Shown here piece by piece: positions 14,085 through 25,736 of a DNA stretch of 32,237 nucleotides; position 1 is the stretch's first letter; each line of letters opens with the position of its first letter. Location: positions 1-32,237 of the forward strand of contig JASEHZ010000005.1 in NCBI GenBank assembly GCA_030018585.1. Direction: 5' to 3'. The stretch is from Patescibacteria group bacterium (GTDB taxonomy: Bacteria > Patescibacteriota > Minisyncoccia > UBA6257 > GWB1-50-10). A model generated the notes under the pieces. The model did not search any database and had not been told where the DNA came from. It saw nothing but the letters and a program-made list of their open reading frames with translations. The position numbers were made by a program, and so were the translations under genes.

Positions 14085-14191
14085 CAGAACGGAGTAAAAT
14101 TAAGGCGGGACCAAACAGTAGATATGGGTTCGACTTATTCCGTACTTACGCGAAGCGTATGATTTGGGGTTCCCGTATCCCGTACCAGAAT

Positions 14192-14404
14192 ATGGAAAAT
14201 ATAGAAAATAAAAACGAAAAATCTGAAAAATTATTAGAACTTGAAAATATTTTAAATCTGATGGTAGCTGAAACGGATTCAGAATTAAATGCATTAAAAG
14301 CGAAAAACAATATCAAATCTATAAAGTTTGGTGCGTTAAATAATTTTACGTCTATCGAAACCGGAAAGTCTTTGATTGAACATTTTAATCAAGTTATTGA
14401 TTAA
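14192..14404 (+). CDS. hypothetical small protein
   Basis: MENIENKNEKSEKLLELENILNLMVAETDSELNALK...; ATG 14192 preferred over 14159. Confidence 0.55.
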   Translation: MENIENKNEKSEKLLELENILNLMVAETDSELNALKAKNNIKSIKFGALNNFTSIETGKSLIEHFNQVID

Positions 14405-14412
14405 ACTTATTT

Positions 14413-14739
14413 ATGGAACACGATTTTTTGCACGTTTTGTATGGAAATATTTTTAAAATACTTGAAATTGAGCATTTAAATGACGTGGAACGAAATGAGA
14501 TTTTGAAACGCTTGGCGGAAATCTTGGAACAGAGAATATTTATAAAAATCGCCACATTGCTTCAAGAACCCCACCAATTAAAATTGCTTCAGCTTTTTTC
14601 CGATAATAATATAAGCGATGAAATGAAATTTGCTTTTATTCATAATCATATACCGAATTTCACTCTATTTTTGGAAAAAGAGCTTGCGGTTTTTAAAAAA
14701 GATTTAAAAAGCAGATTGCAGGAAAACATCCAAAAATAG
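14413..14739 (+). CDS. hypothetical helical protein (DUF5663-like)
   Basis: LNDVERNEILKRLAEILEQRIFIKIATLL; adjacent terminator. Confidence 0.6.
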   Translation: MEHDFLHVLYGNIFKILEIEHLNDVERNEILKRLAEILEQRIFIKIATLLQEPHQLKLLQLFSDNNISDEMKFAFIHNHIPNFTLFLEKELAVFKKDLKSRLQENIQK

Positions 14740-14749
14740 GATGTTTTTT
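14725..14749 (+). terminator. rho-independent terminator
   Basis: aacatcc-aaaaata-ggatgtttttt. Confidence 0.8.
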
Positions 14750-14833
14750 CTTGACTTTTATTATTAATTTTAGCTATTTTAGCTATACTATTTTTAGTTA
14801 TTTTGTACAACTAAATATAGAGAAAGGCGGCTT

Positions 14834-15280
14834 ATGAAACTCATTGTTAGTATTTTAGCAATTGTTTTTTTGACAAGTATCGGATATTCTCAAGATCATC
14901 ATTTTTTGGGTTCACGGATTTATCCTCTTTACGGTGATTTATTGCCTTTAGACCAAAAAATTTTTATTCGTTCCGGATTTTCGTTTTTTAGCAGCAAAAA
15001 AGAAGGATTTAAATATTTTTGGTCTTTAAGCGGACCGGTTTGGATAGAAGAAAGATTTTGGATTCCTTCGCGAACGGGATTTTTAATGGGTTTTCGCAAT
15101 GTGCCGAAGAATACGCCGTGGTTTGGATTTGGTTGTGAAATTATTAACACAAAATTATTTTACGGCCCTTATGCTGGAATGCGTTATGGAAAATGCGATT
15201 TTGAATTTCAATATTTTTGGAATTCGCAAAATAAAACCCGGGATAATTTTCGGCAATTAACCGTAAGATTTAATTTTTAA
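14834..15280 (+). CDS. secreted protein with beta-barrel-like C-terminus
   Basis: signal peptide MKLIVSILAIVFLTSIGYSQ; SD aaaggcgg; ends FRQLTVRFNF. Confidence 0.65.
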   Translation: MKLIVSILAIVFLTSIGYSQDHHFLGSRIYPLYGDLLPLDQKIFIRSGFSFFSSKKEGFKYFWSLSGPVWIEERFWIPSRTGFLMGFRNVPKNTPWFGFGCEIINTKLFYGPYAGMRYGKCDFEFQYFWNSQNKTRDNFRQLTVRFNF

Positions 15281-15296
15281 GAAAGGAGAAGAAAGT

Positions 15297-15689
15297 ATGA
15301 ATTCGCAAGAATCTGTAGTAGCTCAGAAAATTACGCTAGAGGAATTTCTTAAAAAGGAATTAAATGTTCAAAGTCAGTCTTTCGGTAAATATATTGAATC
15401 ATTGTCCAATATGCTTGTTTTTTTTCTTTATATGGATTATCTATCTTTGTTGGCCAGAGCATATTTAGTTCAAAATCGTATTGAAGATTTTATTCTTTTA
15501 ACTGATAAGCCGGTAAGTGATGAAACGATGAGGTATTTGATTAGAATATATTCTTTGAAACAACCAGATGTTATCGAAACCAAAAAGATATTCGATACCT
15601 CAATGGTTATAAAAAGCAAGAAAGAAGATATAATAGTGAATTGGACGAACTATGATGGAAAAATCAGGGTATCTGTAAATAAGAATTAA
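15297..15689 (+). CDS. hypothetical protein (130 aa)
   Basis: strong SD gaaaggag; terminator directly after. Confidence 0.65.
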   Translation: MNSQESVVAQKITLEEFLKKELNVQSQSFGKYIESLSNMLVFFLYMDYLSLLARAYLVQNRIEDFILLTDKPVSDETMRYLIRIYSLKQPDVIETKKIFDTSMVIKSKKEDIIVNWTNYDGKIRVSVNKN

Positions 15690-15747: not shown

Positions 15748-15777
15748 AAAAAAGCGCCCCGATTTTGAATCGGGGCG
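15748..15777 (-). terminator. minus-strand terminator for the 37-aa microprotein gene
   Basis: cgccccgatt-caa-aatcggggcg followed by a T-rich tract on the minus strand. Confidence 0.8.
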
Positions 15778-15800
15778 TTGAAACTACACGAATATCTTTC

Positions 15801-15914
15801 TTAACAGCGGCATCGGCCACGACAACCACAGCGTAATCTTTTTACTTTCTTTACTTTTCGAGACTTAGTTCGTTTTGTTTTCTTTACTTTCTTCACTTTT
15901 TTCTTTTTTGCCAT
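15801..15914 (-). CDS. 37-aa Lys/Arg-rich, Cys-tailed microprotein (absent from ORF track)
   Basis: MAKKKKVKKVKKTKRTKSRKVKKVKRLRCGCRGRCRC*; -10-like TATACT upstream and own terminator downstream. Confidence 0.7.
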   Translation of the reverse strand: MAKKKKVKKVKKTKRTKSRKVKKVKRLRCGCRGRCRC

Positions 15915-15982
15915 TTGGAGAATCTAACTAACCCGACCTTTAATTTTAGTATAACAAAATATTTTCATGGATTTCGATTAAT

Positions 15983-16011
15983 TTGAAAGAAAAACGACTA
16001 AATTGTATACT
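15983..16011 (+). promoter_or_regulatory. sigma70-like promoter of the cysteine desulfurase operon
   Basis: TTGAAA - 17 nt - TATACT. Confidence 0.7.
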
Positions 16012-25255: not shown

Positions 25256-25735
25256 ATGACCGACGATAAAAAAATAAAAATCGGATGGTTTTCTTTTTCA
25301 TGCTGTGAAGACAACACAATTGTGATGACCGAGGTAATGAACGAGCATTGGCAGGAATGGAAAAAAATATTTGATTTCCGCCATATGCGGGTTTTAAAAT
25401 CAAGAAATGTTTTGGATGAATTGGATATTGCTTTTATTGAAGGTGCGGTTGCTTCACTGGAACACGAAAAAACCATAAAAGACATCCGTGCCCGTTCCAA
25501 AAAACTTGTGGCGGTCGGTTCTTGCGCTGTAATTGGTCTGCCGGCCGGTGAGCGGAATAATTTTACCGAAGACCAGAAAAAAAGCATAGAATTTTTAATT
25601 GCCCGATTCGGGGCTTTACCTAAAGTTTTAAAAGTTGCCGATGTGGTTAGGGTTGACGTTGAAATTCCGGGTTGTCCAATGGATCCTAACAATTTCCTAA
25701 AAGTAGTAAACAACTTAGTTCGGGAATTTAAATAA
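25256..25735 (+). CDS. minimal [NiFe] hydrogenase small subunit (group 3 / HydD-like)
   Basis: KIGWFSFSCCEDN; DIAFIEGAVASLEHEKTIKDIRARSKKLVAVGSCAVIG; EIPGCPMDPNNF; 159 aa, 4 Cys. Confidence 0.82.
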   Translation: MTDDKKIKIGWFSFSCCEDNTIVMTEVMNEHWQEWKKIFDFRHMRVLKSRNVLDELDIAFIEGAVASLEHEKTIKDIRARSKKLVAVGSCAVIGLPAGERNNFTEDQKKSIEFLIARFGALPKVLKVADVVRVDVEIPGCPMDPNNFLKVVNNLVREFK

Positions 25736-25736
25736 A

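Follow-up and report, generated by a model that had tools for sequence, protein, structure and literature searches.

The question raised by this locus is whether a short ORF on the minus strand of a 32,237-nt stretch of DNA from a Patescibacteria group bacterium (the whole stretch analysed, hereafter the window) is a genuine microprotein gene, and what its product would do in the cell. Our preferred reading, to which we give a probability of about 0.6, is that the ORF truly encodes a protein and belongs, as a diverged member with a C-terminal extension, to an undescribed family of Lys-rich proteins of ~10–50 aa in Patescibacteria, and that its product would act as a polycation whose expression is linked to a GUCG leader motif.

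The ORF (15801–15914, minus strand) translates to MAKKKKVKKVKKTKRTKSRKVKKVKRLRCGCRGRCRC, a peptide of 37 aa with 14 K, 7 R and 4 C (K+R = 57%); its codons 1–9 (MAKKKKVKK) are the same as the N-terminus of the family described below, and its C-terminal CGCRGRCRC tail is specific to the window's species. An intrinsic terminator on the same strand (15755–15777), with a 10-bp stem followed by the T tract CTTTTTTATA, starts 23 nt past the stop codon (15777–15755, minus). The folding energy of this segment is -19 kcal/mol (z = -4.25), and shuffled copies of the microprotein region contained a mean of 0.8 terminator-like sites. Upstream on the minus strand, a -10 element TATACT preceded by TG (15948–15953) is conserved in a same-genus genome, and a weak -35-like TCGAAA (15972–15977), a consensus match only, is separated from it by an 18-nt spacer. 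The ORF, the strong terminator and the TATACT were all found where the original prediction had placed them. A GGTCG motif (15934–15938, minus) is located at -24 from the start codon, close to where the transcript is expected to begin, and is conserved in the same-genus genome. No Shine-Dalgarno sequence precedes the start codon, but this is not unusual, because only 9 of 30 starts checked in the window carry even a loose one. The window's genome is 0.68 Mb in size and 99.5% complete, and in five simulated genomes of 0.68 Mb each, built with the order-3 composition of the window, there was no ORF of 30–45 aa with at least 55% K+R. The microprotein gene lies beside nifS, and the gene adjoining it is convergent. 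Between tRNA-Gly and the microprotein gene (14159–15689) are four small ORFs without a Pfam match, two of which (148 and 130 aa) have syntenic homologues in the same-genus genome. Elsewhere in the window, hydrogenase small- and large-subunit-like genes (25256–27032 and 27391–28122; PF01058, PF00374) adjoin a DUF6390 gene.

The same-genus genome (G001) has an identical gene order here, with a nifS that is 82% identical to that of the window, and it carries a counterpart of the microprotein gene between the 130-aa homologue and nifS. The encoded peptide, MAKKKKAKKATKNRGKR, is 17 aa long and has no Cys, and both peptides start with MAKKKK(A/V)KK. The leader stretch TTTGTTATACT(A/G)AAATTAAAGGTCGGG, which contains the GGTCG, is kept with one mismatch in 27 nt, the G001 ORF has its own terminator with a sequence unlike that of the window, and the adjoining gene is convergent there as well. 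The match of leader and promoter, together with the Cys-less 17-aa peptide, indicates that conservation covers the transcription unit and the Lys-rich N-terminus but does not extend to the Cys tail or the second KKVKK block, in a close-relative comparison that consists of one genome with a peptide half as long. Thus the conservation of the frame in relatives, on which the original prediction was staked, holds for the Lys-rich N-terminal part and fails for the Cys tail.

Related tiny ORFs of 10–51 aa with their own terminators, starting MAKKKK or MAAKKK, recur across the order and the class. The family start pattern is ATG-GCN-(GCN)-AAR3-4 in a short K/R-rich ORF, which the window's MAKKKKVKK fits. 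A search with ATGGCNAARAARAARAARNNNAARAAR gave matches in 9 of 246 genomes of the order and 14 of 392 of the class, and nearly all were ORFs of 10–37 aa (such as MAKKKKAKKKKRI, MAKKKKAKKKAKKSKKSRRR and MAKKKKVKKKATKKRKTKKKAAKRKTRKRKR), mostly with a terminator just past the end; the exceptions were one sigma-factor-like and one pilin-like protein. The sigma-factor-like protein (L043) has an N-terminal extension, MAKKKKNKKAKKKAKPKKKAKK, that resembles a fused tiny Lys-rich ORF. The MAAKKK variant is present in 37 of the 246 order genomes, and 29 of 30 loci inspected were tiny ORFs, the remaining one being recA-like. In a scan with one genome per species, all 21 Patescibacteria loci among the 80 matches listed were 10–25 aa. 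Kaiserbacteria, Nomurabacteria and other Parcubacteria are among the carriers, and tiny Lys-rich ORFs with a strong Shine-Dalgarno sequence also occur in Omnitrophota, Planctomycetota, Goldbacteria and DPANN archaea, for which we do not claim common ancestry. Tandem arrangements were seen on an archaeal contig (MAKKKKAKKK followed by MAKKKSKKSAKKCSCC) and on a contig of Endomicrobiales (MACKKKAKKKKKKK followed by MAKKKKAKKKKKKK). A protein match in another genome (G030, E = 0.87) was discarded, as it lies inside an unrelated frame. No profile in Pfam, NCBIfam or PHROGs matched the window's peptide or the family, a PDB search gave nothing beyond one chance-level match, and in the open-access literature we found nothing relevant on MAKKKK, small, RRM or nucleoid proteins in Patescibacteria. 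The existence of a tiny Lys-rich family is well supported, and the family is widespread in Patescibacteria and apparently undescribed; not all of its members need be homologous, because low-complexity sequences converge easily.

Evidence of coding selection comes from one genus of the window's own family: across six of its species, pN/pS over the aligned units was 0.12. All ORF gaps in this six-species alignment are in multiples of three, and the hairpin and terminator stems that flank the ORF stay paired despite changes. Moreover, between MAKKKK pairs of the same length, third positions hold 37 of 62 differences (the searched codons being left out), and arginine is retained via AGA/CGC codon swaps. 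With the promoter, leader and start conserved in the same genus and coding selection in the family, the claim that this is a true microprotein gene with a terminator of its own stands, and the ORF would be translated in the window's species.

In the preferred reading, each member would have a short transcript of its own, comprising a promoter, a short leader with the GUCG motif (in most cases within the loop of a hairpin), the ORF and an intrinsic terminator, and the peptide would be an intrinsically disordered polycation that binds rRNA or ribosomes (or DNA), probably when cells grow slowly or are dormant. The nucleic-acid binding that was originally suggested agrees with this, as composition and family context would fit nucleic-acid or ribosome binding. 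The family context is as follows. A typical gene order is murB, tiny ORF, hpf, secA, and of the 37 MAKKKK loci, 19 are followed immediately by hpf and/or secA in the same orientation; for MAAKKK loci, hpf/secA are directly downstream in 11 of 29. Conversely, among 30 hpf loci picked by the hpf profile alone, a K/R-rich tiny ORF precedes hpf in 8, compared with 0.75 expected from background density. Two Cys-tailed peptides, MAKKKKKKKSECCCCC and MAKKTKKKKCCSC, come from two genera that belong to one other family, where they are encoded immediately ahead of 16S rRNA, in its leader region. The hpf/secA neighbourhood is also missing in about half of family members. The hpf profile PF02482 had no match in the window's genome or in G001, and no Lys-rich tiny ORF was found in the region before secA in either; because of this, the window's copy beside nifS is either a relocated or an independently placed unit.

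Histone-H1-like bacterial proteins (of the Hc1/Hc2 and AlgP type) are Lys/Ala-rich and of low complexity, and an unlikely alternative is that the peptide is an H1-like nucleoid polycation that compacts DNA and has no action on the ribosome. Its basic composition would also fit such a role, and the longer members, for example the 50-aa MAAKKKTVKKAAPKKAAKKVVKK, contain K/A-rich repeats of the AKK type. However, many members are just 10–15 aa, far shorter than Hc1/Hc2 or AlgP, their neighbours are hpf, secA and rRNA genes and no DNA-metabolism genes, and even the 50-aa member has no Pfam or NCBIfam match, although such profiles handle low complexity poorly. A ribosomal target is favoured by the adjacency of tiny ORFs to hpf and rRNA genes, which composition alone could not decide. 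Small basic proteins of ribosomes offer comparisons. The bTHX (S31e/Thx) gene, whose product is likewise a very small and strongly basic ribosomal peptide, adjoins rRNA genes in some genomes (in Spirochaeta thermophila it follows 5S) or else the gene of an r-protein (PMC3353972), but the gene context here is different (hpf-secA for the family, nifS for the window) and there is no Pfam or NCBIfam match. SRA, a small basic protein with a possible link to slow growth like that of the family, was found only in some enterobacteria (PMC3353972), and the window's peptide has no profile match. Lso2/CCDC124, a ribosome-bound recovery factor of yeast and human (92 aa, pI 10.8, a late-annotated short ORF; PMC6135351), is small, basic and ribosome-binding, and it serves as an analogy of working mode only, with no homology claimed, since it is eukaryotic, longer and predicted to form a coiled coil, unlike the family peptides.

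A further possibility, which we regard as improbable, is that the unit works chiefly as a small regulatory RNA or as a leader-peptide attenuator for hpf/secA, similar to SecM or the trp leader, in which the peptide itself would be unimportant. SecM-type leader peptides are encoded by short ORFs upstream of secA and control secA in cis, and many family members are likewise short ORFs that precede hpf/secA in the same orientation, with a short transcript that has a 5′ hairpin and a terminator. Nevertheless, many copies are located away from hpf/secA, purifying selection acts at the amino-acid level, and the family peptide differs from SecM in having no signal or transmembrane segment and in having its own terminator. 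In both the window and G001 the next gene is convergent; for the window this rules out attenuation of a downstream gene, as no gene follows its copy in the same orientation. Nor does a Lys-rich tiny ORF precede the secA of the window's own genome.

The notion of a metal-binding or redox microprotein defined by the four-Cys tail, which the original prediction named as an alternative to nucleic-acid binding, fares worse and is very doubtful. Four Cys are present among nine residues, and short C-terminal Cys clusters recur on a few tiny Lys-rich peptides of other lineages (MAKKKKKKKSECCCCC, MAKKTKKKKCCSC, MAKKKKKKKGCCG, MAKKKKAKKKKKVAKKKKRCCR and MAKKKSKKSAKKCSCC). However, the syntenic 17-aa homologue has no Cys, the pattern of the tail recurs in no other genome among 43 of the family, and a class-wide search for Cys tails gave 7 matches, with only two Lys-rich Cys-tailed peptides, the others being out-of-frame or unrelated. 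CXC metal-binding peptides of the metallothionein type would be expected to keep a conserved Cys motif, and that of the window is absent from G001 and these 43 genomes. We therefore rejected a conserved Cys knot, and the core function of this gene cannot reside in the tail, because the tail is absent in the same-genus homologue and nearly all relatives. Metal binding by the tail is possible as a feature of the species and not of the family, and the tail would then provide a species-specific end that is sensitive to metal or redox state. Finally, an ORF arising by chance in an AT-rich intergenic region, as the AT-rich genome and the start without a Shine-Dalgarno sequence might suggest, is extremely improbable and was rejected, because start, frame and leader are conserved in synteny within the genus, the simulated genomes held no comparable ORF and the family-level pN/pS of 0.12 shows selection.

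Returning to the proposed polycation gene and its leader, GGTCG is the most enriched 5-mer in 37 leaders of patescibacterial tiny ORFs, where it was found in 23 loci compared with 2.3 expected. At loci of these kinds, only 27 of 321 other ORFs are preceded by the motif (Fisher p = 2e-13, an optimistic value, as related genomes are not independent). The (G)GTCG is usually in the loop of a hairpin, as in GCGAATAG-TTAGTCGA-CTATTTGC and AGTGAGGC-ATTGGTCG-GCCTCATT, and the leader hairpin stems are stronger than those with shuffled flanks in two sets: the value was 4.21 compared with at most 3.43 in 50 flank shuffles for a first set of loci, and 4.26 compared with at most 3.37 in 200 flank shuffles for a second. 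For the window's gene a transcribed GTCG hairpin is unsupported, since the only possible left arm overlaps the -10 element, and the pairing is absent in G001. Shine-Dalgarno sequences and GTCG are nearly mutually exclusive in leaders, but this carries no weight, because Shine-Dalgarno sites are sparse in the window's genome anyway. An Rfam search with the leader matched no known RNA family, and nothing relevant on structured RNAs in Parcubacteria was found in the open-access literature.

A search for GGTCG 12–42 nt before ATGGCNAARAAR also returned genes of small RNA-binding RRM proteins (MAKKLYVGGLPYSTT and onward). When 25 RRM genes were picked regardless of the motif, 14 carried GGTCG at most 100 nt ahead of the start codon, and one of these 14 is from the genome to which the window belongs (GAGTGGTCGCCCTAC). 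The leader motif that these genes have in common with the tiny ORFs suggests that tiny Lys-rich genes and small RRM genes may form a shared regulon, to which the GUCG leader would couple expression of the peptide. The RRM protein is unlikely to be the sole reader of the motif, because three genomes (G047, G179 and G180) have GTCG-led tiny genes and no match to PF00076 (RRM). The small RRM genes, that of the window's genome among them, also have a long leader in which GTAGG...GGTCG(C/A)C(C/T)TAC pairing recurs and GGUCG sits in an internal loop. This leader resembles a structured RNA element in its own right and is without an Rfam entry. Only tentatively do we extend these observations to an unrecognised post-transcriptional regulon of Patescibacteria, in which a GUCG-presenting leader would control both small RRM proteins and Lys-rich, ribosome-associated (hibernation) peptides of 10–50 aa encoded beside hpf-secA or rRNA genes.

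Common gene callers use a minimum length of 90 nt, and most family members (10–27 aa) fall below it. Moreover, peptides that are more than half K/R are lost in a tryptic digest, which leaves no usable tryptic peptides. A family that is widespread in a large and barely cultivated bacterial radiation could thus have escaped annotation and proteomics alike, and its hpf/secA/rRNA neighbourhood, together with the leader motif shared with RRM genes, connects it, in a concrete and testable way, with ribosome hibernation and with RNA-based regulation in minimal-genome cells.
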